Source: Lachnospiraceae bacterium (lineage in GTDB: Bacteria > Bacillota_A > Clostridia > Lachnospirales > Lachnospiraceae). From it: a stretch of DNA of 22,491 nucleotides. Numbering within the stretch: the first letter of the stretch is position 1; each line of letters begins with the position of its first letter. Of this stretch, positions 7,096 to 19,824 are shown one piece after another. The DNA lies in NCBI GenBank assembly GCA_017634255.1, contig JAGBNT010000054.1:1-22491 (forward strand), written 5' to 3'. The translations under genes and the position numbers were made by a program. The notes under the pieces were generated by a model. The model searched no databases, was not told where the DNA came from, and saw only the letters and a program-made list of their open reading frames with translations.

Positions 7096-9348
7096 TTACT
7101 TCTGTGCTAAAAAAACTTCCTGCAGGTCATAATAGCTCTGTCTTAAGCGTTCAAAATAAGGAAATTCATCCCACATGGGCCAGGTATACGAAGCAAACTC
7201 TATCTTACCCTTTTCTTTATCGGTAAAGCCGACGTAGATCTCATCTATCTTCATCCCTCCGAGTTCGCCGTGCTCTCTGAAATCCCACTCGATCTCCCTC
7301 GTGGAGGGATCCCTGAAATTTATAAGCTGCCATGGTATCCTAAGCTCGAGAATGTCTCCCTCAAAATAATAATCCGCAAGGGTATTATATGCCTCATTCT
7401 CCTTAACCGTGCTTCCGAAAAGGAGAGCCCCTGCATTGAAGTTTACCTCAGGGATAACGGCATCCGTACCGGCAGCGCTGATCTCCTTTTCCACAAGGTA
7501 TTTTATGTCGTGAAAGCCCGCGCCCGAAGCCGTCGCCTGGAAATCCGAGGCAAGCATTGCTTCCAGTTCCTTTCCGAGATAGCCATGATAGGCAAAGGGA
7601 TAGCGGTCATAATATTCATGGACTAAGATCCTTGAATCCTCCCTGCCATTAAGCTCGATTATGAAATCGGCTCCATTATCCATATTAAAATCCCAGTAGG
7701 TGTTGCTTCCGGCATCCGGAAGTATATCGAGGGGTATGGTCAGCTTTTCATTTTCCCAGTCAGCCCCGTATCTTTCAAACATAAAGTATAAAAACTCGCT
7801 GTCATAGTTTAAGTACATATTGACATCGCCCGCCGACATAAGCTTCTGCTCCTCGCTCCACTCGTCCCTGCTCCCGTCGAGAGTGACTACCGGAGCCCCG
7901 TCCTTTCCCGGGACGAACTCCAAAAGCCCCGTCTGCTGAACCGGGGTCATTGCATCCCTCCAATAGGGACGCCTTTCCGCATCGGTTAAGTTCCCCGTTT
8001 TCCAGTTATGCTTATACCATTCATCCTGCCAGGAGGTTATCAGCCCTCCGGCACAGCCGGTATCATATATATCCTTTGCCATTGCAGAAAGCATTTCTCC
8101 CTGCTCCGCTTCGCTATGCCTTCCCTCGTTAAAGTCGGTAACGGGATTTACCTGTGTAAGCCCTCTGCCTGCGGGAAGGCCGTACTCCGACACAAGGACG
8201 GGTACGCTGTGACTGGCTCTAAGCTCCTCGAGATACCCCTTATAAGGATCAGATTCCCCGTTTTCTCCCACGGTCTGTGCGTACTTACTGTCCATATACA
8301 TAAAGGCAGGGCGGTAGGGATAAACATTATAAGATGCAAATACCCCCGCTTTAAACCTGTTGGTGGGCTTTATGCTTTCCGCGTTCAGACTTATACTACC
8401 TCCTCCTAAAGAGTCGGTGCCAGTATGCTCCAAAATATCCGTGTCAGCTCCGTTTACAAAGGAGACAGGGCGCTGCATGGCATATCTCTCCATCTCGTAT
8501 GAGGTCAGATAGTCAGCCGCCTCTGCCCAGAAGCACTCGCAGGCAGAAACATCCCCGCAGGTGAAATACTCGCCCTGATATGCCTTTTTATCGGCATTTA
8601 AGGTGTTGGTCTCCTTGATATAATCCGCCTCTACCTCACTTCCAATGAGCCAGCCTATCACCCATCTGGACACATCCTTGTAGTATATCCCCCAGGCACC
8701 TCCGGCAAATTCATCTATCCTGCAGTTGCCGTGTATGATATCCACGAGGGCTCTGGAGTCTCTTTGGTGCAGCTCGACAAACTGCTGGTCAAACATATTC
8801 CCTGACTTAGCCAGAAGCTCATCATTAAACCATGTTCCCTGCATAAGATAAAGCGGATTTTCCGCAGTCTCGTTAAATTCACTCAAAGCCTCATAAAAGA
8901 TAGGCATCTGCAGAGTATATACCCTTATGCAGTTTGCGTTCATCTTGGATATCTCATCGAACCACCGAAGGTAAGCCTCCTTATCAGCCGCCAGATCTCC
9001 GGGATAGTGCCCCGGCATGCCGGTGCCTATATTGACTCCCTTAATATATACGGGCGAGAAGCTGCTTCCGTCAAAGCGCTGAATATACTTATCCCCTGTA
9101 TTAAAATAAAGGTAAACGGTTCCGTCCTCGGTGAAGGCATCCGAATAGGAATGGATATAGGACTCCGTGTCCACCGCCAGCTCTTCATACTGCCCCAGCT
9201 CCTCCAGTCTCCGCGCCGCGAAATTACTGTCCTTTTTTATGACATAGCGGACAACCCCCAGCACAAAGGCGGCGGATACTATGATTATCCCGAGGACAAT
9301 GCCTATATCAATTAAGCGTTTTACCGTTTCACTGCGTTCTGGCTTCAT
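7096..9348 (-). CDS. Membrane-anchored glycosidase-like protein (clan GH-A-type barrel plus beta-sandwich), last gene of the XrtG operon
   Basis: A 750-residue protein with an N-terminal transmembrane anchor (about 12-36) and no cleavage site, so the bulk should face outside. Residues about 95-460 read like a clan GH-A TIM barrel: YIKGVNIGTGMPGHYPGD, then NCIRVYTLQMP, a GWLIGSEVE segment with Glu238 at the acid/base position, LVSEYGLP with Glu388 at the nucleophile position, and SWQDEW at 439-444. From about 487 a second domain starts VVTLDGSRDEW and looks like a CBM9/DOMON-type beta-sandwich. A ribosome binding site AAAGAGAG precedes the ATG. The catalytic assignment is inference from motif context; no specific GH family is claimed. 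It follows the GtrII gene by 47 bases, suggesting trimming, release or transfer of the glycan made by the operon. Confidence 0.65.
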   Translation of the reverse strand: MKPERSETVKRLIDIGIVLGIIIVSAAFVLGVVRYVIKKDSNFAARRLEELGQYEELAVDTESYIHSYSDAFTEDGTVYLYFNTGDKYIQRFDGSSFSPVYIKGVNIGTGMPGHYPGDLAADKEAYLRWFDEISKMNANCIRVYTLQMPIFYEALSEFNETAENPLYLMQGTWFNDELLAKSGNMFDQQFVELHQRDSRALVDIIHGNCRIDEFAGGAWGIYYKDVSRWVIGWLIGSEVEADYIKETNTLNADKKAYQGEYFTCGDVSACECFWAEAADYLTSYEMERYAMQRPVSFVNGADTDILEHTGTDSLGGGSISLNAESIKPTNRFKAGVFASYNVYPYRPAFMYMDSKYAQTVGENGESDPYKGYLEELRASHSVPVLVSEYGLPAGRGLTQVNPVTDFNEGRHSEAEQGEMLSAMAKDIYDTGCAGGLITSWQDEWYKHNWKTGNLTDAERRPYWRDAMTPVQQTGLLEFVPGKDGAPVVTLDGSRDEWSEEQKLMSAGDVNMYLNYDSEFLYFMFERYGADWENEKLTIPLDILPDAGSNTYWDFNMDNGADFIIELNGREDSRILVHEYYDRYPFAYHGYLGKELEAMLASDFQATASGAGFHDIKYLVEKEISAAGTDAVIPEVNFNAGALLFGSTVKENEAYNTLADYYFEGDILELRIPWQLINFRDPSTREIEWDFREHGELGGMKIDEIYVGFTDKEKGKIEFASYTWPMWDEFPYFERLRQSYYDLQEVFLAQK

Positions 9349-9395
9349 ATCAACTCTCTTTTAATCATGAAGTATTTCATATAAAATGATGCTTT

Positions 9396-11153
9396 CTATT
9401 CCGGCAGCTTCACCACTACCCTGTCCCCGATAAGACGGCAGTACCCGTCTTTGGGATATGCCGGCATTTCCTGAACCTCTGGCATTGCCTTATATTGATT
9501 TATTACATCCGGCTCCTCTTCAATAGTCATGTTATTTCTAAGAACGGAAAGATAGGATGTAATAGTCTGTTCATAGGAAAGAGCAGTATTGTCTTCGCCG
9601 AAGATACCATAATGATTTCGAATAAGCTCAAAGTTAAACATCGTTTTTGAATTGATGTCCCCGACTATTACCACTCTCATATTCTGCCTGTCATAACCGT
9701 CTACGGCGGTCACATCGTCCGCTATCCTTGTAACGTATGAGAGAGTCCGGTCATACATGATCTTCTGCAAAACATATACCTCATTGCTGACTCTTATATT
9801 GCTGCAAAGGATAATGAGCGAGCAGACTATTGAGACAAGCTGGAGGCAACGGGAAAACCGCACCCTTTTCCCGCTGTCCTCTTCCGGACTTTCGCTTTCC
9901 CAGGAGGAAAGGGCAAACATAAGTATGTAGAGGAAAAATAAGGCATAGGAAACCCTGTACATAATAAAAATATTTCCCATTCCGATGGAGATCAGCATCA
10001 TCGCCAGGGGAAGCAGGATAAGCCCCAATACGGCGGCAAGAACCACATTGAGCGCTCCGGTCTTTCTTTTAGAGCTCAGCCGTATGAAGCATATTATAAG
10101 AATGAGCACAAGAACATAATTGCATATGGCACATTCAAGGGTTACCTCGTCGTCGTTTATAAAAAAGAACCTTAAAATGGCAAGGTAGTTCTTTCCCACC
10201 AGAGCGGGGATTGCCGAGACCCCCGAACCCAGATTTCCTGAAAGATTCCCCAGTCCGTTATAACCCCCTGCCGCCTCCACGCCCAGGCGATATATTTCCT
10301 CCTGATAAAAAAAGTAATACCATATCACTCCCAGCAGGAGGGAGACCCCGTGGCATACCCAGTGAAGAAACATCCTTAAATTTATTTTCTCTGTCAAAAG
10401 ATCCCTTATCATTATCAGGCTCACCGTAACGAGGATAACGCTGGCAAACGCCTGGTACATTCCCAGTGCGATAAAAAAACAGAGTGATCCCAGCAGCATA
10501 TTTACCAGCCTGGCTCTTTTATTTATTAAATACACTCCCAATACTGACATCAGAAGCGAAAACATATAGGCGTCCACAAGGAATGTGTATGAGGCATTAA
10601 GACTCGTCACAGTAATATTCGCTGACAAAATGCCTCCGACCAGCATTATATACCACTTATTTTTTATCTTTAGCATATCTGTAAGCAGGTATACGGCAAG
10701 GGCTATATAGATGATAGACAGCATACCCACGACCCAGGGCAGCTGGAAATTACCCCTTATGCTCCCATATAGAGGCTGCAAAAATCTTCCCAGCCTGACC
10801 TCCCAGCTATCCGCAAAGTGATCTATATAATTCAGGGCGTCATATCTGGGTATGAAATTAAAGCACTCGAAAGCGTTGGCAGCCATATAGAAAATAAAGG
10901 TTCCGATAAAGCTGTAAAAAAGCCTTACCCTGTCTATGATACTATCGTTTTTTACAGGAGCCACGGCAGCTGTTTTTTCAGCCGTTTTTTCGGGAACAGC
11001 CGGAAGGGCTTCCCGGCTCTCCTGAGGCTTTTTATCCTGAAATTTTTTCTCCTGCGTATCTTTATCCGGCGGTTTCTTAGCCGCCTTTGTCTCCTCTTTG
11101 GTCTCAAACCGTCTGCCGGTAACCTTTTCCCAATCGTCGTCAAAATTTATCAT
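9396..11153 (-). CDS. GtrII-type membrane glucosyltransferase with Lys/Glu/Pro-rich N-terminal tail
   Basis: A 585-residue polytopic membrane protein. A charged, cytosolic-looking tail (1 to about 70) is followed by about ten hydrophobic segments and a C-terminal soluble part (about 465-585). The segment RYDALNYIDHFADSWEVRLG (residues 103-122) leading into RFLQPLYG is characteristic of the GtrII glucosyltransferase family (Pfam Glucos_trans_II), GT-C-like enzymes that use a lipid-linked sugar on the outer face of the membrane. The XrtG-associated glycosyltransferase families described in Firmicutes fit this position. The gene starts 24 bases after the preceding stop with GAGAGGGA upstream. 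The sugar and acceptor are unknown; the operon suggests a surface glycan. Confidence 0.75.
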   Translation of the reverse strand: MINFDDDWEKVTGRRFETKEETKAAKKPPDKDTQEKKFQDKKPQESREALPAVPEKTAEKTAAVAPVKNDSIIDRVRLFYSFIGTFIFYMAANAFECFNFIPRYDALNYIDHFADSWEVRLGRFLQPLYGSIRGNFQLPWVVGMLSIIYIALAVYLLTDMLKIKNKWYIMLVGGILSANITVTSLNASYTFLVDAYMFSLLMSVLGVYLINKRARLVNMLLGSLCFFIALGMYQAFASVILVTVSLIMIRDLLTEKINLRMFLHWVCHGVSLLLGVIWYYFFYQEEIYRLGVEAAGGYNGLGNLSGNLGSGVSAIPALVGKNYLAILRFFFINDDEVTLECAICNYVLVLILIICFIRLSSKRKTGALNVVLAAVLGLILLPLAMMLISIGMGNIFIMYRVSYALFFLYILMFALSSWESESPEEDSGKRVRFSRCLQLVSIVCSLIILCSNIRVSNEVYVLQKIMYDRTLSYVTRIADDVTAVDGYDRQNMRVVIVGDINSKTMFNFELIRNHYGIFGEDNTALSYEQTITSYLSVLRNNMTIEEEPDVINQYKAMPEVQEMPAYPKDGYCRLIGDRVVVKLPE

Positions 11154-11177
11154 AGTCTCGCTGTCCCTCTCATATAT

Positions 11178-13667
11178 TCAGTTCCTGGAATCCTTAGAGC
11201 GTCTGTACAGATAGAGTGAATAGAGCACCGAGAGCAATACTCCTAAGAGAGTTAACCCCAAGCCCTTCCAAAGATTGGGATATTTATACTCTATCACCAT
11301 TTTCCCGGCTTCTATTCCCATAAGGCAGTTTTTGCTCGTCATAGGTCTGTCGGACACAAAACAGTCCATAAGACCCATCCCTGTGTTGACCTCCTCCTCG
11401 CACTCTATCGTCATTCCGGTGGGATAATAAGCAGTCTTCATTGGCACGATATGGCGCTCGGGCATCTGCCCCGGTTCTATTATCATTGCGTCATGCATTA
11501 TCTTTGCGATTGAAGGGTCCTCTGTAAGATAAAAATACAGGGGAATATTCAGGGCAAGCACGCGGATATTGTCATTATATACCGTGCCATAGAAGCTTAT
11601 CTGTTCCCCCGCGTCCGTCAGCGTTCCCAGAACCTTGTCCAGTCCGTTGACATAGTAGCAGGTCCAGTCCGCATAGCTCATCGGAAAGAGGTCGCAGTCC
11701 AAAACTCCGTAATCCACGGTCTCCAGCTCGGGATAGCCATTTTTAAACTTGATCATATTGCAGGTCATTCCTAAAAAAGTCTTCATCCTGTTTTCACGGT
11801 TTTCAGGTATTCCGTCCGCCAGTATCAAAATCTGCGTTCCGCTGTCCGCCAGCCTCTTTACCAGGTTTTCAGCCTCGGTCAGGCTGTCGTATGTAAATTC
11901 GCTAAGATAGATAACATCATATTTTGCAAGCTCGTCATATGTATAGTGATTGAGGTTGGTCTCCTCCGTCTCCTCTATCGTAGGATAAGCCAAAGACAGG
12001 GTGGCTGCGGCGTTTCCGATCCCGAGCGCCCGGAATTTCTCGCTTGTTCCCCATCTGCCCTCTATGTCCTGATGGAAAAATATATACTCCTCATTTTCGG
12101 CATATACCGAGTAGCCCAGCGCCTCTGCCGAATCCTTAAGCCGAAAATACTCGCGGTCATTCCCGTAGAGCTCGGCCTCAAGTGTCGTCTTCTTTATGAT
12201 GACGCTGTCATTTCCGAGCTGGAGCATCCTGTCAAATAGATACGGGTAGTAACCGTCCCTTAAGGCTATCTCGATCTGCGATATGTTTCTCTTTGTGGCT
12301 GCCCCCTCCCAGCCGTAGCCGTAGCTGGTCATAATCCTGTCTCCGTAATCCGAGATCATAAAGGCCACCGTAGAGCCCAGCTCACCGCCGTCAAAGAAAG
12401 CCAGCCTTTGCTTTGTAACCTCCTTAGCCTGCCTAATCAGGGTTTCATCCATTATCTTTTCATACCTGTCCCTGGGGTCCGTAGAGTTGGCATAGCCGCG
12501 TATATACCAAAGAGAGGGCAGGGTATCCAGGATAAGGAGAAACAGACAGACAAACAGCAGCTTTTTCTTTAGCGTCCTCCACTGCACAAGGCTTAAAAGA
12601 CTTAAGCCCACGGCAATGGATATGTATTTTAGCATCAGCAGGAATTTAGATGAGGGCATTACGGACAGCAGCGGGAACAGCAGGTTCGTGGAAAACAGCA
12701 GCATCATTATAGCCGTGATAAAGCCCGGTATCTGCATCCGCTTTGAGCATATTATCCCGAAAATGCTGACAAGGAAGATCGCCAGTCCGTAATAATATAT
12801 ATCACTGGAAACCGCCGAGCGGTAAAACGGATTTAAGCTGATAAATATACTCTGGAAGTGGTTTTCTATCTCCTCCCCCGCTCCGAAGTCAATAACCCCG
12901 GTCTGATAAGCGTTATAAAGCCACAGCCCTATTATCGCGTAGGGCAGGCACAGTGCCGCAAGAAGCCTCCTGAAACGCCTGCCTGTCCTGTTTGCTATAA
13001 GATAGATTATCATATACAGCAGGGAGGCAAGAAATATCATCGCCGAATAGTTTAGGGAGCTTAAGGTAATAAGGGTATATACGGCAATGAGCTTCGGTAT
13101 TATCCTCCAGCTGCCGTACATAAGGTAGTTGGAAACGTAAAAAAGAAACAGCGGCAAAAAGGCGTTTGCGAGGGCACGCCCCAGATCCCCCACTCCAAAA
13201 AGTATATACAGGTTGTTCGGGATAAAGAACCAGATTATACCCATGAACCAGCCGAGTATAGGTCTGTTCTCCCTCATTCCGACTATGTACCAGCAGGCGG
13301 AGCCTATAATGAATACAATAACAATATACAGCAGATAACCGATATATATGTTGCCCCTCATCAATAACTGGCACAGGGCGATGATATAGGGCGCCAGGGG
13401 AGGCTCCACCCTCAAGAGCTCTATTCCGTTAAACCAATAGGGGTCATAGAGCGGAAAGATAATCCCGTCCTGCCAGTTTTTGTAAAGGAAATCCCCGCGG
13501 TAAATATCGTACATGACGTCCGTTCCGGACGGGTACATGCCGTTATTGGAGACATACAAAACAATGAGCATGGACACTACCGTCCAGCTCAATAGCATTA
13601 CTATGGGCATGATGAGCTCCAGTATATAGAGCCTCGCCATTTTTTTATCTTTAGTTGTCTGTTCCAT
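11178..13667 (-). CDS. Large polytopic membrane protein, PTPS_related/YfhO-like (GT-C fold candidate)
   Basis: An 829-residue protein: N-terminal TM (about 14-38), then an extracytoplasmic loop with YPSGTDVMYDIYRGDFL (45-61) and NWQDGIIFPLYDPYWFNGIE (64-83), which is typical of the PTPS_related (PF10131) and YfhO-like families. About ten more TM segments reach residue 390, followed by a large extracytoplasmic domain (about 400-790) and one C-terminal TM ending in RRSKDSRN. The early acidic loop residue Asp50 is where GT-C enzymes keep their catalytic acid. Despite the Pfam name it contains no pterin-synthase domain; the name fits its co-occurrence with the neighbouring PTPS-like gene. It overlaps that gene by 17 bases; no clear ribosome binding site is seen, and a start at 13640 is possible. 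Confidence 0.7.
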   Translation of the reverse strand: MEQTTKDKKMARLYILELIMPIVMLLSWTVVSMLIVLYVSNNGMYPSGTDVMYDIYRGDFLYKNWQDGIIFPLYDPYWFNGIELLRVEPPLAPYIIALCQLLMRGNIYIGYLLYIVIVFIIGSACWYIVGMRENRPILGWFMGIIWFFIPNNLYILFGVGDLGRALANAFLPLFLFYVSNYLMYGSWRIIPKLIAVYTLITLSSLNYSAMIFLASLLYMIIYLIANRTGRRFRRLLAALCLPYAIIGLWLYNAYQTGVIDFGAGEEIENHFQSIFISLNPFYRSAVSSDIYYYGLAIFLVSIFGIICSKRMQIPGFITAIMMLLFSTNLLFPLLSVMPSSKFLLMLKYISIAVGLSLLSLVQWRTLKKKLLFVCLFLLILDTLPSLWYIRGYANSTDPRDRYEKIMDETLIRQAKEVTKQRLAFFDGGELGSTVAFMISDYGDRIMTSYGYGWEGAATKRNISQIEIALRDGYYPYLFDRMLQLGNDSVIIKKTTLEAELYGNDREYFRLKDSAEALGYSVYAENEEYIFFHQDIEGRWGTSEKFRALGIGNAAATLSLAYPTIEETEETNLNHYTYDELAKYDVIYLSEFTYDSLTEAENLVKRLADSGTQILILADGIPENRENRMKTFLGMTCNMIKFKNGYPELETVDYGVLDCDLFPMSYADWTCYYVNGLDKVLGTLTDAGEQISFYGTVYNDNIRVLALNIPLYFYLTEDPSIAKIMHDAMIIEPGQMPERHIVPMKTAYYPTGMTIECEEEVNTGMGLMDCFVSDRPMTSKNCLMGIEAGKMVIEYKYPNLWKGLGLTLLGVLLSVLYSLYLYRRSKDSRN

Positions 13668-14355
13668 TGGATATTATAGAATCAAAAATATCATTGAGAT
13701 TACTTCCGGCAATATTGTTCTGCATAGGAATGTTGCTCTGCATAGGAATGTTGCTCTGCATAGGAATATTGCTCTTCACAGGGATATTGCTCTGCATAGG
13801 AATATTGCTTTGCATCGGGATATTGCTCTGCACAGGGATGTTGCTCTGCATCGGATTATTCCCCATCATTATATAGTCATCCATATACGGAATCCCGTAG
13901 TGGTCATAGCTTACCGTATCTTCGTAGGGGTATTCCGTAACTCCCGATGCATTTTGTATCAGCTTCTCATCGGATATCTGCTGGGAGAAATCGTGGATAT
14001 ATGTCCTCGTAGGCGTCTCGCTTCCCTCCACGCGGATGACCTGTCCTCCAAGATTACCTATAATATCCCTGATCTTAGGCGCAAAATAATCCAGCATGCT
14101 CTCCAGAGTCGGGATGATAAGGTCGAAGGGCTCTATATCATTCATGACCTTGTCCTGATAGGGATTTATAAAGGCATTGATGCCCCTTTCAAAGTCATTA
14201 AATTCCATATATTTACTGCGGTCTATAAGTATATCCACCACAAATTCCCAGGTGTGGGGATGTATCTGCCCCCTCTTATTATTGAAAATAACATAATGGC
14301 TGGCGTTCAGATAGAATTTAAATCTGTATTCCCTTAATGCATTGGCTAATATCAT
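13651..14355 (-). CDS. PTPS-like protein with C-terminal hexapeptide repeats, XrtG-operon associated
   Basis: A 234-residue protein whose first 140 residues resemble 6-pyruvoyl-tetrahydropterin synthase/QueD. The zinc ligands are kept: NASH (His20) and IHPH (His32, His34). The pterin-anchoring-type Glu appears in VEGSETPTRTYIH. The catalytic Cys position (four before the HxH) is Arg28, and the LDH Asp-His motif reads MNDIE, so the normal lyase or synthase chemistry is unlikely. It fits the XrtG-associated 6-pyruvoyl-tetrahydropterin-synthase-related family known from Firmicutes. The tail carries seven NIP[MV][QK][SN] repeats plus a partial copy. The ATG at 14355 is preceded by AAGGAAG at ideal spacing, so I reject the GTG 54 bases further upstream. 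The partner paralogue is at 20262-20645. Confidence 0.8.
   Translation of the reverse strand: MILANALREYRFKFYLNASHYVIFNNKRGQIHPHTWEFVVDILIDRSKYMEFNDFERGINAFINPYQDKVMNDIEPFDLIIPTLESMLDYFAPKIRDIIGNLGGQVIRVEGSETPTRTYIHDFSQQISDEKLIQNASGVTEYPYEDTVSYDHYGIPYMDDYIMMGNNPMQSNIPVQSNIPMQSNIPMQSNIPVKSNIPMQSNIPMQSNIPMQNNIAGSNLNDIFDSIISNGTDN
13717..13857 (-). repeat. 18-base in-frame tandem repeat (seven full copies plus a partial one)
   Basis: The coding-strand repeat encodes NIPMQS-type hexapeptides: NIPVQS, NIPMQS twice, NIPVKS, NIPMQS twice, NIPMQN, preceded by a shortened NPMQS unit. Copies differ at one or two bases (for example CATAGG against CATCGG or CACAGG on the plus strand), so the array is not freshly expanded. 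The in-frame period means copy-number change by slippage would keep the reading frame. Confidence 0.95.
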
Positions 14356-14408
14356 GGTCGATCTTCCTTGAATATTTGATTTATAGTGAGTATGAATATG
14401 CCAGGACA

Positions 14409-15494
14409 CTAGTGCAGCGCCCAGAACTTCAGTTCCAGAAATACCTGAAATTCGGAATATATATCACTGTTTACGTCCGCAATACCGTTTAGGATATCAA
14501 AGCCCAGAAAATCACATTCACTGTCCAGGCTCCCGATATGCCTCATCTTATAAAGGTCCGTCTTCATCGAGATAATCGCAATGGTCTTCTTTGCCTTATC
14601 CTCAAAGCGGACATCCCTCTTATCCAATATATCGTCCAAAGCGTGCATAAGCTTTATCTTATTGCGCTCACTGCCATAAGCGTATAGTGAAAAGCCGAGA
14701 GGAAAAGCCTCTTCCTTCTTCTCCAGCTTTGAAAGGAACTCGGGCACTGTGCTTATATCAAAGACGGCGGGACCCTTGCTCTCAATCCCGATGCCATTGT
14801 CCATCCTGTGGTTTAAGCGGACCAGCTTGCCGTTTAATTCGTAATTTTCCTTTTCACTTTCATCGAGCCTTTTTACCAGACTGTTATATACGCTTACACT
14901 TATGATAGGAATTATATACAACAGGAAATACACTCCGAAAAGCAGAACGCTAAGTTCAACCTTTGCCTGCAAAAAGGTGTTGTTGTCCAGAAGCACGCTC
15001 CTGTTTGTCAGCAGGCATAAGCGATACTCCTTTCCTCCGTAATCAAACTTAACCCCGGAGGCGATATATTCCTTCTTGTTGACGACTATTTCCGCATGCT
15101 GTACCACATTGAGCTTCAGCGAATTGACAAAGGCTTCGGAGCTCTTTTCCGTGTAATAGTAGTCCGTCTTAAAGGACTGGTACTTATTGGTCTCGAGCGT
15201 ATCCTTTACGAACAGCAGGGACTGATCCTGCGAAAAGACCCAATATCTGTTGGTTGACGCATCCAGAGTGCTTAAGATGTTCTGGATGATCTCCTCGTTT
15301 GAACGGTTTTCCTTAAGGTTGATCTGGTCAATTACCAGCTGCACGTAGCTGTCCTGCTGGGTTGCGCATACAGCTACTATGCCGTCCTCATAGCGCTTTA
15401 GTGCATTTAATGTAATAAGGGTCATGACCGCCAGAAGTGCGGTCATAACAGCCGTAACAACGACAAGATTTTTCTTTTTAAACTTCCTGTTCAT
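14409..15494 (-). CDS. Two-TM sensor-like protein of the XrtG operon, possible degenerate GGDEF domain
   Basis: A 361-residue protein with TM1 (about 9-30), an extracytoplasmic domain (about 31-178) resembling a small Cache-type sensor region, TM2 (about 179-203), a short coiled linker (LDESEKENYELNGKLVRL) and a cytoplasmic domain of about 135 residues. The cytoplasmic part has the spacing and hydrophobic pattern of a GGDEF fold (LMHALDDILDKRDVRFEDKA, then TIAIISMKTD) but no GGDEF, DxxxLxN or metal-binding motif. It would therefore be non-catalytic if related. No histidine kinase motifs are present. It overlaps the glycosyltransferase gene by 17 bases. I infer a regulatory or structural partner of the neighbouring synthase; the GGDEF relation is a weak reading. 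Confidence 0.55.
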   Translation of the reverse strand: MNRKFKKKNLVVVTAVMTALLAVMTLITLNALKRYEDGIVAVCATQQDSYVQLVIDQINLKENRSNEEIIQNILSTLDASTNRYWVFSQDQSLLFVKDTLETNKYQSFKTDYYYTEKSSEAFVNSLKLNVVQHAEIVVNKKEYIASGVKFDYGGKEYRLCLLTNRSVLLDNNTFLQAKVELSVLLFGVYFLLYIIPIISVSVYNSLVKRLDESEKENYELNGKLVRLNHRMDNGIGIESKGPAVFDISTVPEFLSKLEKKEEAFPLGFSLYAYGSERNKIKLMHALDDILDKRDVRFEDKAKKTIAIISMKTDLYKMRHIGSLDSECDFLGFDILNGIADVNSDIYSEFQVFLELKFWALH

Positions 15495-16857
15495 CGTCTA
15501 TGTTGACCGCCTTTCTGAGCTTCGGTACCCAGCCGAAAAGCTTTGCTCCCTGCTCCTTAAGCGCTGCGACAAAGGAGTTACTCTCGTCCGTAAGGGTTTT
15601 GGTCTTCCATGCGCTGTTAGTCCCGATACTGTTTAATATCCCTGCCATACGTACAAAAAACATTATCATATTGAACAGGGACAGCAGCGGAACGACCCAC
15701 CAGTGCTTCTTATAATACATCGCAAGAGCCGGAAAATTTTTCATAAACAGCAGGATGGAGAAAAAATAAACATAGGAAATTATGATATACATGACCATCA
15801 TAAAGACCATCGAAAAGAGGATCATCTTTGCAGAATAGCCCATTATCATAAGGCAGATAAGAGCCACGTACCAGATCATCCTGGGGAAGGCGAAGGTATG
15901 GTCAAACATTAAGGTACGCACATTTACATCCTTAAGCATCCTTGTGGGACGGAAATTTTTGTCGTCAAAAAGCTTCGCTACCTCCAGACTGCCGCGCTGC
16001 CACCTCTGTCTTTGCGTATACAGCTTATCTATACCCTCTATCGGACCTACCAGATAAAGAGCGATATCGCAGACTTTAACCTTCTGGTGGAGGATGTGCT
16101 TCATCTGGAAAGTTATCTGCGTATCCTCCGCTATCGTGGAGGTGTCATACATCCTCGATTTTAAGACCGCGCTCTTTCTGAAAGCTGAAAATGCCCCGGA
16201 AAGAGTATAGACCTCACCTCTTTCGGATGCGTAGGTCCTTCCTGCCAGGAACGCCTGGGCGTATTCCATAAATTCGATCTTCCTCAAAAGCCTTGAAAAG
16301 AAATTCTTATATTCCTCAATCTGCTCAGGGATGGTAAGTATGGCTCCGGTCATACAGCCTATCTCCGGGTCCTCTTCAAAGGTATTGATCATGTACTGCA
16401 GCGCCCTGGGCTCCAGCTTCCCGTCGCTGTCGATATTGATTATGTATTTTCCGGTACTGTTGTAAAGCGCAAGATTTAACGCCCGGGATTTTCCCTGCTC
16501 GGAGGTGAGCCACTGCATCCTGAGCTCCGGAAAGTCCTTCTGTGCCCTTGTATATACCTTAAAGCTCTTTGTATCCTCAGAGTTGTTATTGACCAGAAAA
16601 ATTCGTATCTTGTCGTTATCATAGGTGGAATCGTTCACTGACTGTATACATTCATACAGTGAATCGTAAGAATTATAGACCGGGATTATCAGAGAGATCT
16701 CCGGATCCGCTGCAGGGTTCGGCGGGATATGGTTTTTCAGCCGCTTCTTTATAAGCACAATAGCAGAGCCAAGGGCGGGTAATATTTCCATCATGAATGG
16801 AATCAATACCCATGCACTCCAGAATATGAATGAACCAAGCCAGACCCTTAATGTCAA
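15478..16857 (-). CDS. XrtG-associated family 2 glycosyltransferase (processive type)
   Basis: A 459-residue membrane glycosyltransferase. An N-terminal TM is followed by a GT2 catalytic domain: SLIIPVYNSY (about 55-64), the DxD-type motif DSDG (143-146), the TED-like IAEDTQ (Glu244, Asp245) and the Q-x-x-R-W motif QRQRW (282-286), followed by three or four TM segments. This is the cellulose/hyaluronan synthase-like layout of enzymes that polymerise from nucleotide sugars at the inner membrane face. It matches the small GT2 clade known to sit beside exosortase G in Firmicutes. The start is TTG at 16857, with a strong AAGGAAGGAG 8 bases upstream, four bases after the xrtG stop. Sugar specificity is not readable. 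Confidence 0.88.
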   Translation of the reverse strand: MTLRVWLGSFIFWSAWVLIPFMMEILPALGSAIVLIKKRLKNHIPPNPAADPEISLIIPVYNSYDSLYECIQSVNDSTYDNDKIRIFLVNNNSEDTKSFKVYTRAQKDFPELRMQWLTSEQGKSRALNLALYNSTGKYIINIDSDGKLEPRALQYMINTFEEDPEIGCMTGAILTIPEQIEEYKNFFSRLLRKIEFMEYAQAFLAGRTYASERGEVYTLSGAFSAFRKSAVLKSRMYDTSTIAEDTQITFQMKHILHQKVKVCDIALYLVGPIEGIDKLYTQRQRWQRGSLEVAKLFDDKNFRPTRMLKDVNVRTLMFDHTFAFPRMIWYVALICLMIMGYSAKMILFSMVFMMVMYIIISYVYFFSILLFMKNFPALAMYYKKHWWVVPLLSLFNMIMFFVRMAGILNSIGTNSAWKTKTLTDESNSFVAALKEQGAKLFGWVPKLRKAVNIDDEQEV

Positions 16858-16861
16858 GCGC

Positions 16862-17611
16862 TTACTCCTTCCTTTCGCTGATCTCCTTTATACTCTCTGT
16901 CTCCTCTTTAAATGCCGCTATCTCCTCTGACTTAACGTCATCTCCCCAGGATTTATCGGCTTTGATCCTGCCCTCGCTGTCTTTCTCCTCTTCGCCCTCG
17001 GAGGCTTTTTTCTTTCCGCCGATGTTATAGCGGAAATTGCCTACCTTCATCCTGACAACCTGTGACTTCGTAAATACATAGAAATACATCACCACCGTCA
17101 CAAAGTAGAAAAAGATCCTTCCTACATAGGTATGCGCGATATAATATGATCGCGTTCCTCCAAAATATATGATCTCGCAGATGAGCACTATCCTTATCGC
17201 ATTGGCAAGGATGATGTAAAATACTCCGAGAACGCTTAATACTATCCTTTCAAATGCGTCGTATACCTTGTAGAATACCAGCAGTGAAAGATAGGCAAGT
17301 ATCTCGATGATACCCGAACATTCGAAGTCTATCTGCAGCGTTAACGAACCCTCGTTCCTGGTCTGTATAAAAATAATCCCGTACCGGAAAAACGTCTGAA
17401 AGGTGGATGTTACTCTCCCGACGATCCCTGCCAGAGCCGCTACTGCTCTGGATAGGGGTCCCACAGCAACAGGACGTATATACACCATTCCGAATATGAA
17501 GAGCCCCACCGAGCCGACAAGCTCAAACCATGCCTGCAGCTTTGCTTTATGCAGGGTTATCAGTACAAATATCCATAATATGAAAAATATAACGCCTAAA
17601 AGTATATACAT
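16862..17611 (-). CDS. xrtG: Exosortase family protein XrtG
   Basis: A 249-residue polytopic membrane protein with the three exosortase active-site residues in the correct order: Cys98 in FECSGIIE, Arg140 in ANAIRIVLI and His160 in IAHTYVGRIFF. Exosortases are membrane cysteine transpeptidases thought to cleave C-terminal sorting tails. The Gram-positive XrtG subfamily pairs with Firmicu-CTERM tails and with a specific GT2 enzyme, both found here. A charged cytosolic C-terminal tail (about 195-249, KKKASEGEEEKDSEGR) follows the last TM. ATG at 17611 with AGGGAG upstream, 20 bases after the small gene. The likely substrate is the secreted protein at 17965-19824. Confidence 0.9.
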   Translation of the reverse strand: MYILLGVIFFILWIFVLITLHKAKLQAWFELVGSVGLFIFGMVYIRPVAVGPLSRAVAALAGIVGRVTSTFQTFFRYGIIFIQTRNEGSLTLQIDFECSGIIEILAYLSLLVFYKVYDAFERIVLSVLGVFYIILANAIRIVLICEIIYFGGTRSYYIAHTYVGRIFFYFVTVVMYFYVFTKSQVVRMKVGNFRYNIGGKKKASEGEEEKDSEGRIKADKSWGDDVKSEEIAAFKEETESIKEISERKE

Positions 17612-17631
17612 TTAAAGCTCCCTGGGCGGTA

Positions 17632-17808
17632 CTATTCAGAGATGAGAGGAGGCTTTTGATATAGCTTACGATTTATGTATTCTTTTTTCTTCTCCAGATA
17701 AGCTATGGTCTTTGTGGCATTCTCTTCATGCGCGAGGGCTAAAGCTTCTTCTACAATTTCAAGCTGGTCAAAAAGATTCCCGTTATATTCTTTTTCATTT
17801 GTAGGCAT
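17632..17808 (-). CDS. Small helical protein, first gene of the xrtG operon, function unknown
   Basis: A 58-residue, soluble, probably helical protein (EIVEEALALAHEENATKTIA then YLEKKKEYINRKL). I do not recognise the family. The ATG at 17808 is chosen because AGGGAGG lies 7 bases upstream; a GTG nine bases earlier would overlap that site. It lies 20 bases before xrtG, downstream of a predicted promoter and a palindrome. It could be a chaperone-like or regulatory partner, but nothing in the sequence says so. Confidence 0.65.
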   Translation of the reverse strand: MPTNEKEYNGNLFDQLEIVEEALALAHEENATKTIAYLEKKKEYINRKLYQKPPLISE

Positions 17809-17825
17809 ATGCAGCACCTCCCTGT

Positions 17826-17862
17826 TTATAATAAACGAAATGATTTATTTCACTTACTATGA
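17826..17862. repeat. Imperfect palindrome in the xrtG operon leader
   Basis: Arms of 16 bases (17826-17841 and 17847-17862) around a five-base loop, closely matching the perfect copy at 20034-20070. There are four arm differences. In minus-strand RNA three of them become G-U pairs and only one is a mismatch, so the hairpin is largely kept in the transcript of the operon. It ends 17 bases before the ATG and just upstream of the ribosome binding site. Confidence 0.75.
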
Positions 17863-17863
17863 T

Positions 17864-17892
17864 ATTTTAGCATCCTGATAAGGTGAAAACAA
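17864..17892 (-). promoter_or_regulatory. Predicted sigma-A promoter of the xrtG operon
   Basis: The minus strand reads TTGTTT, a 17-base spacer, then TAAAAT preceded by TGC, which gives an extended -10. The start point would be near 17857, so the leader would contain the palindrome at 17826-17862. The -35 box touches the terminator of the upstream gene. Predicted by eye. Confidence 0.5.
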
Positions 17893-17919
17893 CTCCCGGG
17901 CTAGGCACACCCGGGAGTT
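17882..17919 (-). terminator. Intrinsic terminator of the sorting-substrate gene
   Basis: A perfect 10-base, GC-rich stem (17891-17900 with 17910-17919, AACTCCCGGG) with a nine-base loop begins 45 bases beyond the stop of the tail-bearing secreted protein. On the minus strand it is followed by GTTTTC, a short T-tract. It separates this gene from the xrtG operon. Confidence 0.75.
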
Positions 17920-17964
17920 ACAGCTTGATTTTATAAGGAATTAGGCTTTGTGCCGGTCAGCAGA

Positions 17965-19824
17965 TCAGGCTGCAGCCTTTGCTCTTTGAACCGCTCCGAT
18001 AAGCTTCTTTTTGTTTATGACTAGACCTATAAGGCAGGCTGCAAGACACATGCCCGCGTTTGCAACCGGACCGGACGAGGTTCCAACAGGAGCGGTCGCA
18101 TATCCTCCGATGCGCTCATAATCCGATCCTACAACTCCAAGCGCGTCTGCCTCCACTCCATATCTGGCGGCAAATTTCTCAGCATCTACCCAATACTGCA
18201 TTTCGGCAACTCCGTTGGAAACCTTGGCGTACATTTCTCCATAAAGTGTGTCGCCTGCAGTAAGGTTATTTAAATTTGTGGAATTATTCCAACCACTGGT
18301 TGCAAACAGATAAACATGTATGGTCCCGTCTGTGATCTTCTGGAAATCCCCCTCGCTAAGCCATGTAAGATTTCCGTTTTCATCTGCCATAGCATAGCTG
18401 AAGTTCAAGTCGCTTGCATTGTAATCAATGAGAGGCATTTTTTCACTTCTGTTATAAAGGGTAACATCCATAACATCCCATGCATTGATATGCGGAGTAT
18501 ACTGACTGACACAATATCCCATCAGCTTTCCATTCGCATTCACAAGGGCAGCTTCACCATCGACTACAGCTGTCTGCGTTCCATTTGTCGAATAATCCAG
18601 CCTCGATACCGGGTAGTTCGCCCACATCCCGTAGGACTCCTCATTCATGTTTGTCGTATCAAAGTCCTCCATGTTGGGGGTCACGACAGGTGAAGGCGTA
18701 TCAGCGCTCTCTTCCGCAAGAACCAGCCTGTTCCCGCCGTCAAGTACCAGATCCTGCGCATCCCATCCGAAAGCAATGGAACTGTTATAGTTGGGAAGCA
18801 TATCTACCGGTATGGCTATCTCGTAGGAATAACTGTTGATCCAGGGCCATGACCCGTCTTCAGCCTGATAGCTACGGCTTGTCTTAACCACAGTACAGTT
18901 TTCGAGCTGAACGTTGTTATTGCCGCAAAGAACGCCGTAATCAGTAATCCGGAATACAAGGGTTCTCCCTGTGTCGGTAACTATATCAAAGTTACCCGTG
19001 CTGCGCTCACCTCCCCAGGGTACAACATTGTCAAGATATATATATACCGTTTCCCCGTCAGGGCTTAAAGTCCATGCCACATGGGAATCGATCTTATTTC
19101 CGTCGGAGTCTGTAATATAGTCAAATGCCGTTACTGTCTGTTGGTCCCACTTTACATTTGAACCATTTATGGCAGTTCCCTTAACCTCCTCAGATGAGTC
19201 GCTGTCATCGACAACTGCTATCTTCATGCTTTCCGCTGAATCTACAACAATTGAATTTGCGGCATCTCCGGTATCGCTGCCGGTGCTTCCCGCTGCGCCT
19301 GCAGCGTCTCCGGCTGTACCTGTCGCATCACCTGCGGCAGCGCCTGTAGAACCTGCGGTGTCTCCGGCTGCGCCTGCGGCATCACCTGTCGCCGCTCCTC
19401 CTGCTGCACCTGTGGCATCGCCGACTGCAGCATCGCCTGCTGCGCCGCCTGTGGAACCCGTGGAGTCTCCAGCTGCGCCTGTGCTCTCACTTCCAGTGGC
19501 AGTCTCCCCTGCGGTCTCTTTGCTTCCTGTGGAGTCCCCGGCTGCAGCGCCTTCATTAGAAGCACCACTATTGCTTTCGCCCCCGTTATTATCAGCATCA
19601 GAGGCAGGCTCCTGGCTTTCCTCCTTGGGTGCCGGATTCTCTTCCTTTACCTCTTCCTTTACCTCTTCTTTTACTTCTTCCTGCTTTTCCTCTTCCTGCT
19701 TCTCTTCGCTCTGTTCAGCTGTGCTGCCGCCCTCAGAGCTCTCTTCCGCATAAACTAAAGTAGAGCTCATGAGCATCATTGCAGAGATTGCCACAGCCAT
19801 AGCCTTGATAAGTTTTCTCTTCAT
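17965..19824 (-). CDS. Secreted protein with C-terminal Firmicu-CTERM-type sorting tail, probable XrtG substrate
   Basis: A 619-residue protein. A signal peptide (MKRKLIKAMAVAISAMMLMS, cleavage expected near VYAEES) is followed by a Glu/Lys stretch (about 38-63) and a Gly/Ala/Ser/Thr/Asp-rich stretch (about 80-190) resembling a flexible or glycosylated wall spacer. A globular region (about 215-570) starts INGSNVKWDQQ and looks like beta-sandwich repeats. The C-terminus is a tripartite tail: VGTSSGP (about 580-586), a hydrophobic segment (587-603) and NKKK plus more basic residues. There is no LPxTG motif. This tail, beside xrtG, fits the Firmicu-CTERM signal. AAAGGAG precedes the ATG. It appears monocistronic, with a promoter, a 146-base structured element and a terminator. 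The substrate relationship is inferred from architecture and location. Confidence 0.85.
   Translation of the reverse strand: MKRKLIKAMAVAISAMMLMSSTLVYAEESSEGGSTAEQSEEKQEEEKQEEVKEEVKEEVKEENPAPKEESQEPASDADNNGGESNSGASNEGAAAGDSTGSKETAGETATGSESTGAAGDSTGSTGGAAGDAAVGDATGAAGGAATGDAAGAAGDTAGSTGAAAGDATGTAGDAAGAAGSTGSDTGDAANSIVVDSAESMKIAVVDDSDSSEEVKGTAINGSNVKWDQQTVTAFDYITDSDGNKIDSHVAWTLSPDGETVYIYLDNVVPWGGERSTGNFDIVTDTGRTLVFRITDYGVLCGNNNVQLENCTVVKTSRSYQAEDGSWPWINSYSYEIAIPVDMLPNYNSSIAFGWDAQDLVLDGGNRLVLAEESADTPSPVVTPNMEDFDTTNMNEESYGMWANYPVSRLDYSTNGTQTAVVDGEAALVNANGKLMGYCVSQYTPHINAWDVMDVTLYNRSEKMPLIDYNASDLNFSYAMADENGNLTWLSEGDFQKITDGTIHVYLFATSGWNNSTNLNNLTAGDTLYGEMYAKVSNGVAEMQYWVDAEKFAARYGVEADALGVVGSDYERIGGYATAPVGTSSGPVANAGMCLAACLIGLVINKKKLIGAVQRAKAAA

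Follow-up and report, generated by a model that had tools for sequence, protein, structure and literature searches.

The stretch of DNA analysed here (the window) comprises 22,491 bases of a Lachnospiraceae bacterium (contig JAGBNT010000054.1) and carries a gene cluster around the exosortase XrtG. By its family matches, the locus is of the XrtG kind, and there is about an even chance that it encodes a dedicated glycan-synthase machine, in which XrtG would mature a secreted protein with a hydrophobic C-terminal tail (the tail protein) and keep it beside a membrane glycosyltransferase of family 2 (GT2).

In the proposed machine, the membrane GT2 would synthesize and extrude a sugar chain, the GT-C proteins PTPS_related (which, on established knowledge, we take to be a GT-C glycosyltransferase) and GtrII would add sugars at the outer face, and a glycosidase-like protein may trim or rearrange the chain. 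The tail protein, as the sole partner of XrtG, would be exported and stay anchored to the membrane through its C-terminal helix, the G-T-S-[ST]-G-P stretch ahead of this helix being the putative recognition site. XrtG would mature the tail protein by cutting the tail and, in addition, retain it beside GT2, where it would serve as an outer subunit that binds the chain. On the cytoplasmic side, a Cache sensor with a dead GGDEF domain and two PTPS-like proteins would most likely form a ligand-responsive switch. The cutting, the chain-binding role, the switch and the glycan chemistry are the parts that we infer.

XrtG and its tail-bearing partner

Cys98, Arg140 and His160, named as the active-site residues of XrtG in an earlier reading of this DNA (the original prediction), are borne out by a match over the TIGR03110 cut-off and by an alignment of 30 sequences in which all three are invariant. 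In a wider set of 188 rows, which includes the window and contains repeats (e.g., the window again as P0001), Cys is kept in 184/188 and both Arg and His in 188/188; the best 120 of 634 and the best 120 of 227 matches were used in the protein searches. The window XrtG is 75% identical to that of a Lachnospiraceae metagenome-assembled genome (MAG), L001, over residues 16-249.

The surroundings of XrtG were compared across 55 loci from a genome-collection scan with the XrtG alignment (75 stretches matched, 55 confirmed), a set selected by XrtG itself. GT2 follows XrtG in all 54 loci that reach far enough, and the tail protein lies upstream of XrtG, or is fused to it, in 52/52. Twelve of these 52 tail proteins were entered by hand, namely ten open reading frames (ORFs) upstream of XrtG (seven confirmed by the Firmicu-CTERM model TIGR04145; the hand-entered L048, L052 and L053 stand outside that scan) and the fusions of L046 and L051. 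Flanks are ample in 33 loci. All 33 have PTPS-like 1 and PTPS_related, 30 have the sensor, 16 have PTPS-like 2 and seven have the glycosidase-like protein, with neighbour-gene profiles built from the same loci in which they were counted; relatives of the GtrII-like protein were matched in 0/55 loci. PTPS_related sits between the tail protein and XrtG in some loci. The association of XrtG with GT2 and PTPS-like proteins, as originally claimed, is thus upheld by matches over the cut-offs of TIGR03111 and TIGR03112 and by these counts, and it recurs in relatives far beyond chance. Furthermore, a Firmicu-CTERM domain search of 12 genomes (from 12 of the 55 loci) revealed exactly one such protein in each, further domain matches falling within the same open frame. 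Together with the GT2 and tail-protein neighbourhood, this argues for a dedicated one-enzyme, one-substrate system within a glycan synthase.

The only hydrophobic stretches of the window tail protein are residues 5-24 and 584-605. Its spacer is rich in Ala, Gly, Glu, Ser and Thr, and its C-terminus consists of GTSSGP directly before the transmembrane (TM) stretch, followed by basic residues, with LPxTG absent from the sequence. The predicted architecture of a signal peptide, a spacer and a small-residue/TM/basic tail lacking LPxTG was thereby recovered, the start being signal-peptide-like and the spacer of low complexity and followed by a C-terminal domain. The expected match to the Firmicu-CTERM model is borderline: the formal cut-off of TIGR04145 is missed (E 0.0018; score in Table 1), and the match is nearly full-length (profile positions 10-188 of 191, reaching into the tail) and in the expected gene. 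The model matches 29/29 scanned tail proteins at E <= 0.01, the window's included; that of L012, the closest of 28 aligned relatives (36% identity), scores 53.0 bits as a whole protein and 45.4 bits in the genome search, against the cut-off of 50. On these scores, the window tail protein is best called Firmicu-CTERM-like, the family cut-off being formally missed. The best PDB match to the tail-protein domain (E 0.029) was discarded for its poor alignment, and its motif IDGxxxDW may resemble CBM9-like modules.

The pattern G-[TAS]-[SP]-[TS]-[GAFY]-[PATY] stands directly before the C-terminal TM in 47/51 tail proteins, and the remaining four read ATSTAP or ATSTMP; as the pattern was composed after the tails had been read, the count is a description and no test, and other ORFs of the same loci carry the pattern in 6/656 cases. 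This set of 51 omits the fused L046 and L051 and loci with the tail gene off the contig or not picked up. Gly is found at +8 in 38 and Cys at +12 in 31 of the 47 motif-bearing tails; the window tail has GTSSGP and the +12 Cys, with Asn at +8. At the same place, Lactococcus has GGSTGG; different tails are seen in Aneurinibacillus and in unfused relatives of the distant clade described below. Cutting of the tail is very likely in the window lineage, to judge from its sequence, because the Cys and the motif are both kept.

XrtG is rare, occurring in 13/398 genomes of the phylum (9 over cut-off), 11/392 of the order (10 over cut-off), 14/63 of one class (13 over cut-off) and 5/148 of one family, each sample including the genomes on which it was centred. 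L104 (21.5 bits) and L068 (23.6 bits) were not taken as XrtG. L067, at first sight an XrtG-GT2 fusion, was set aside: its frame at 1540-2988 joins an XrtG-like part to a GT2-like part that seems shortened, its neighbour seems altered, and it is probably broken or misassembled. A single scan of viral contigs with the window's own XrtG as query revealed no relative. Two plasmid-borne examples were observed. On pBV60, a Lactococcus lactis plasmid classed as conjugative, an XrtG operon is present with a diguanylate cyclase (DGC), an EAL gene and a TIGR03766 glycosyltransferase (L088, 4413-10691), and the operon can therefore travel on a plasmid. An Aneurinibacillus megaplasmid (L089, 7937-11308) encodes PTPS, a hypothetical tail-like protein, XrtG and GT2, the end of this PTPS being hydrophobic. 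No paper on the biochemical characterization of XrtG was found in open-licence PubMed Central. Transcripts of the XrtG system are overexpressed in interferon-inducing Lactiplantibacillus plantarum strains, according to one report (PMC12854382), which names the genes LP_RS09090-09075.

Fused exosortases and loss of the catalytic cysteine

Fusion of the tail protein to XrtG was found in two separate groups. In L046 and L051, both curated models score over cut-off in one frame (94.3/75.7 and 200.9/204.4 bits), and they overlap at one helix, indicating that the tail helix is the first helix of XrtG. The same kind of fusion also occurs in ten proteins from nine distant genomes, eight of these in one class (the contigs L075 and L079 belong to a single genome). 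The active-site Cys is replaced in 10/10 of the distant fusions (by Asn in nine and Ser in one), with Arg kept in 10/10 and His in the 9/9 in which it is visible, L078 running off its contig end before it. Unfused XrtG proteins of the same class keep the Cys in 6/6; within the 188-row set it was lost only in the four fused proteins then included, and 13 later sequences (two of which repeat earlier genes) all retain it. In the tree, the ten Cys-less proteins group as a single clade (support 0.974) and L046 and L051 as another, which gives two fusion events and one recorded Cys loss. One member of the clade (L059, 226-1428; G089) belongs to a genome that is not among the 63 of the class, which may reflect transfer, a misplaced MAG or contamination.

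The Cys-less fused XrtG is under purifying selection. For pairs that were not saturated, the ratio of nonsynonymous to synonymous substitution rates (dN/dS) of the XrtG part is 0.096 (L060/L059), 0.135 (L060/L063) and 0.113 (L075/L079, one genome), and that of GT2 in the same pairs is 0.091, 0.099 and 0.050, respectively; three further pairs were saturated or nearly so. GT2 adjoins the Cys-less fusion in 8/10 loci, the other two contigs ending before it. Moreover, the fused N-terminal domain matches a separate ORF upstream of XrtG in related unfused genomes, with 131-180 bits in 5/6 and 52 bits in the sixth, a short ORF. Sortase-like enzymes normally depend on their cysteine. Since this clade has kept the whole exosortase domain, fused to its former substrate and beside GT2, the domain appears to do something there besides cutting. 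The simplest account of the Cys-less fusions, on the sequences at hand, would be a complex with XrtG positioning the tail protein beside GT2.

Fusions also link other parts of the locus. GT2 carries a C-terminal extension in 11/55 loci, and the 11 share the motifs ES.E, TM and GDHPRMD; the one extension scanned (L029) contains a Sulfatase domain and fits PRK12363 (phosphoglycerol transferase I, 169.8 bits) and OpgB (149.0 bits) far better than LtaS (41.8 bits), all below cut-offs. A PTPS-GT-C fusion was found in 7/8 fetched loci (three scanned and confirmed by Pfam), the frame in L083 closing with a domain that resembles the tail protein at 15.9 bits (E 0.009), under the cut-off, and the sensor is fused to PTPS in L051. 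The original prediction left it open whether a surface glycan would be joined to, or assembled with, the tail-bearing protein. Its second option is well supported, because the gene order, the pairing of one tail protein with one XrtG per genome (12/12) and several kinds of fusion link the tail protein to XrtG and to the glycosyltransferases. XrtG therefore probably holds the tail protein within a complex, and, to judge from the fused, Cys-less relatives, its part in keeping the machine assembled may be as important as cutting. Since unfused, fused-with-Cys and fused-without-Cys forms all occur in nature, the purpose of XrtG is directly testable.

Several observations weigh against the proposed machine. 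The L046 and L051 fusions retain the Cys, and its loss is, on the tree, a single evolutionary event distant from the window, whose own XrtG retains all three residues. The fused N-terminal domain resembles the Lachnospiraceae tail proteins weakly (hhalign E 0.019, probability 2.5), and TIGR04145 scores 15.9 bits on L080. With regard to the chain-binding role, no carbohydrate-binding family, and indeed no Pfam family at all, was over cut-off in the tail proteins, and the PDB yielded no useful relative of the tail-protein domain.

Alternative accounts and related systems

A further reading of the Cys-less fusions would make the XrtG fold foremost a structural subunit of the glycan synthase, with cutting an added and dispensable function and the fused form a pseudo-exosortase that holds the outer subunit beside GT2. 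This is possible, and on the present sequences it appears somewhat less likely than not.

Sortase-like ligation, the stronger option of the original prediction, in which XrtG would cut the tail and transfer the new C-terminus to a GT2-made glycan, giving a glycan-linked surface protein, is considered unlikely. In its favour, the residues of the EpsH family suit a transpeptidase (PMC1569441), the Cys is kept in every unfused XrtG examined, and each of the 12 searched genomes has a single tail protein. However, the Cys-less clade keeps its adjoining GT2 wherever the contig reaches, showing that the system can survive in a form in which action of XrtG via that cysteine is impossible, and a coat built from a single substrate per genome would be a poor one. 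The PEP-CTERM/exosortase A (EpsH) system is similar in that an exosortase lies amid exopolysaccharide genes and the tail consists of a motif, a TM and a basic end; it differs in having 1 to 65 PEP-CTERM proteins per genome (PMC1569441), compared with one tail protein in each of the 12 genomes searched here.

Lipid anchoring of the archaeosortase A (ArtA) type, in which a membrane lipid would replace the tail and the surface protein would merely share an operon with glycan genes, is also regarded as rather improbable. ArtA maturation couples proteolysis with lipid anchoring in Haloferax (PMC7157517), and the window XrtG belongs to the same exo/archaeosortase family (TIGR04178, 50.0 bits). On the other hand, the tail protein-XrtG fusions, and the weakly supported PTPS/GT-C fusion with a tail-protein-like end, speak for a fixed place of the tail protein in the glycan-synthase machine.

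In PTPS-like 1, His38, His50 and His52 are kept in 53/53 sequences and Glu131 in 98%, and in PTPS-like 2 H22, H32 and H34 are kept in 22/22 aligned. QueD/PTPS enzymes have a catalytic Cys shortly before HxH, and no Cys lies between the first His and HxH in 53/53 PTPS-like 1 and 22/22 PTPS-like 2 sequences. It is highly improbable that these proteins are pterin or queuosine enzymes, with an unrelated sensor and two modules sharing a transcript by accident: plasmid annotations name such genes 6-carboxytetrahydropterin synthase and the QueD model scores 23.0 and 22.9 bits on the window proteins, but these scores fall far short of the cut-off of 89.25, the Cys is missing, PTPS is fused to GT-C and to the sensor, and it is present in 33/33 loci. 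No solved relative of the PTPS-like protein was found by sequence in the PDB at E <= 1. The C-terminus of PTPS-like 1 (13651-14409) is a tandem repeat of the SNIP[MV]Q type.

With the described XrtG/Firmicu-CTERM system (TIGR03110, TIGR03111, TIGR03112 and TIGR04145), the window locus has in common the families of the enzyme, GT2 and PTPS, each over its cut-off, and the order of tail protein, XrtG, GT2 and PTPS is that of the plasmid records from Lachnospira eligens and Lactococcus lactis. It differs from that system in that the tail protein scores below the cut-off of TIGR04145, PTPS-like genes number two, and GtrII and GH157-like genes are additional; in place of the diguanylate cyclase and EAL gene of the Lactococcus plasmid, it has the degenerate-GGDEF sensor. 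In cellulose synthase, the membrane GT2 BcsA has in BcsB an outer, C-terminally membrane-anchored partner that handles carbohydrate; the likeness to GT2 and the tail protein is an analogy only, and family scans revealed no sequence relation between the tail protein and BcsB. The synthesis of osmoregulated periplasmic glucans by OpgH/OpgB is comparable in that GT2 has a C-terminal domain in the 11 loci mentioned above, the one domain scanned resembling OpgB-type phosphoglycerol transferases; the window GT2 lacks such a domain, the score lies below the OpgB cut-off and XrtG has no known counterpart in that system. In some lineages, the OpgB-like domain and the GH157-like enzyme may point to a polymer of the beta-glucan type decorated with phosphoglycerol. 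An analogous BcsA-like GT2 with a cyclic di-GMP (c-di-GMP) receptor is encoded by the Lactobacillus acidophilus gts operon, the available excerpt of whose description does not mention an exosortase (PMC6123363).

Cluster layout and accessory proteins

In the window, rpsB and tsf are followed by the same-strand XrtG cluster, and a dGTPase gene, dnaG and rpoD are among the genes beyond it. The cluster runs in the order PTPS-like 2, tail protein, XrtG, GT2, sensor, PTPS-like 1, PTPS_related, GtrII and glycosidase-like protein, ending at 7096 (Table 1). From XrtG through the last gene, neighbours overlap or are separated by gaps within 50 bases; the gap between the tail protein and XrtG measures 353 bases. 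All genes that the original prediction had named between 7096 and 19824 lie where it placed them, according to ORFs and family scores, and two that it had not listed were added, namely the sensor and PTPS-like 2, the latter lying beyond that interval.

Table 1. Genes of the XrtG cluster in the window
Feature	Position	Strand	Evidence and remarks
PTPS-like 2, 127 aa	20262..20645	-	TIGR03112 77.5 bits (cut-off 69.35); upstream of tail protein, between it and tsf
Secreted tail-bearing protein, Firmicu-CTERM-like, 619 aa	17965..19824	-	TIGR04145 18.2 bits (cut-off 50); motif at residue 581
Exosortase XrtG, 249 aa	16862..17611	-	TIGR03110 176.4 bits (cut-off 102.75); Cys98/Arg140/His160
XrtG-associated GT2, PgaC/cellulose-synthase-like membrane glycosyltransferase	15478..16857	-	TIGR03111 562.1 bits (cut-off 363.95); adjoins XrtG
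Membrane sensor, 361 aa: Cache/PAS-like domain at about 38-166 (extracytoplasmic), a second TM and a degenerate GGDEF fold at 239-361 (cytoplasmic)	14409..15494	-	Predicted model
PTPS-like 1, 252 aa, repetitive C-terminus	13651..14409	-	TIGR03112 123.5 bits (cut-off 69.35)
PTPS_related membrane protein, 829 aa, probable GT-C glycosyltransferase	11178..13667	-	PF10131 377.9 bits; 10 TM-like stretches
GtrII-like membrane glycosyltransferase, 585 aa	9396..11153	-	PF14264 124 bits (cut-off 30)
Membrane-anchored glycosidase-like protein, 750 aa: TIM barrel, then C-terminal beta module	7096..9348	-	Structure model; Glu238/Glu388

With regard to the glycosyltransferase itself, DxD is present in 62/63 and QxxRW in 63/63 GT2 sequences, and the window GT2 has both. 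The sensor model, with a predicted local distance difference test (pLDDT) score of 80.1, combines an extracytoplasmic Cache/PAS-like domain, which is the most conserved portion of the protein, with a cytoplasmic GGDEF fold. The GG[D/E]EF signature was found in 0/37 aligned sensors after residue 200, and PF00990 was not matched. Binding of c-di-GMP by the sensor is not claimed, since the signature is lost and the RxxD inhibitory site seems absent by eye. A riboswitch link to c-di-GMP was dropped, as 14 loci searched at gathering level gave only four tRNAs and one Clostridiales-1 RNA. Likewise, DGC or EAL neighbours were dropped as a general feature, only scattered ORFs (8 DGC-like and 2 EAL-like at E 1e-5) being found in L001-L055 and L080-L087.

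No sequence family was over cut-off for the glycosidase-like protein, and the PDB gave no useful sequence match. Its structure model (mean pLDDT 62.9, with low confidence outside much of the barrel) matches clan GH-A barrels, best of all GH157 at 16% identity, with other GH-A families within 2 Z units of that match. Glu238 and Glu388 are invariant in nine sequences and may constitute a catalytic pair, and the modelled GH-A barrel with its two invariant Glu resembles GH157 endo-beta-1,3-glucanase in this respect. Relatives of this protein were also detected, with the profile from the first set, in XrtG loci of another class (L080, 1464-3632, 624 bits; L081, 16872-19001, 617 bits). Upstream of the cluster, L008 (5464-7713) and L010 (5302-7539) have ORFs that look GH3 beta-glucosidase-like by eye.

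An Rfam search of the window at E <= 1 gave zero matches. Between 16700 and 20900, six promoter-like sites were found against 7.2 expected, which is uninformative, and nine terminator-like sites against 3.2 expected. The strongest of the latter is a hairpin at 20709-20681 on the coding strand (12 pairs, T-rich tail), located after tsf and before PTPS-like 2.

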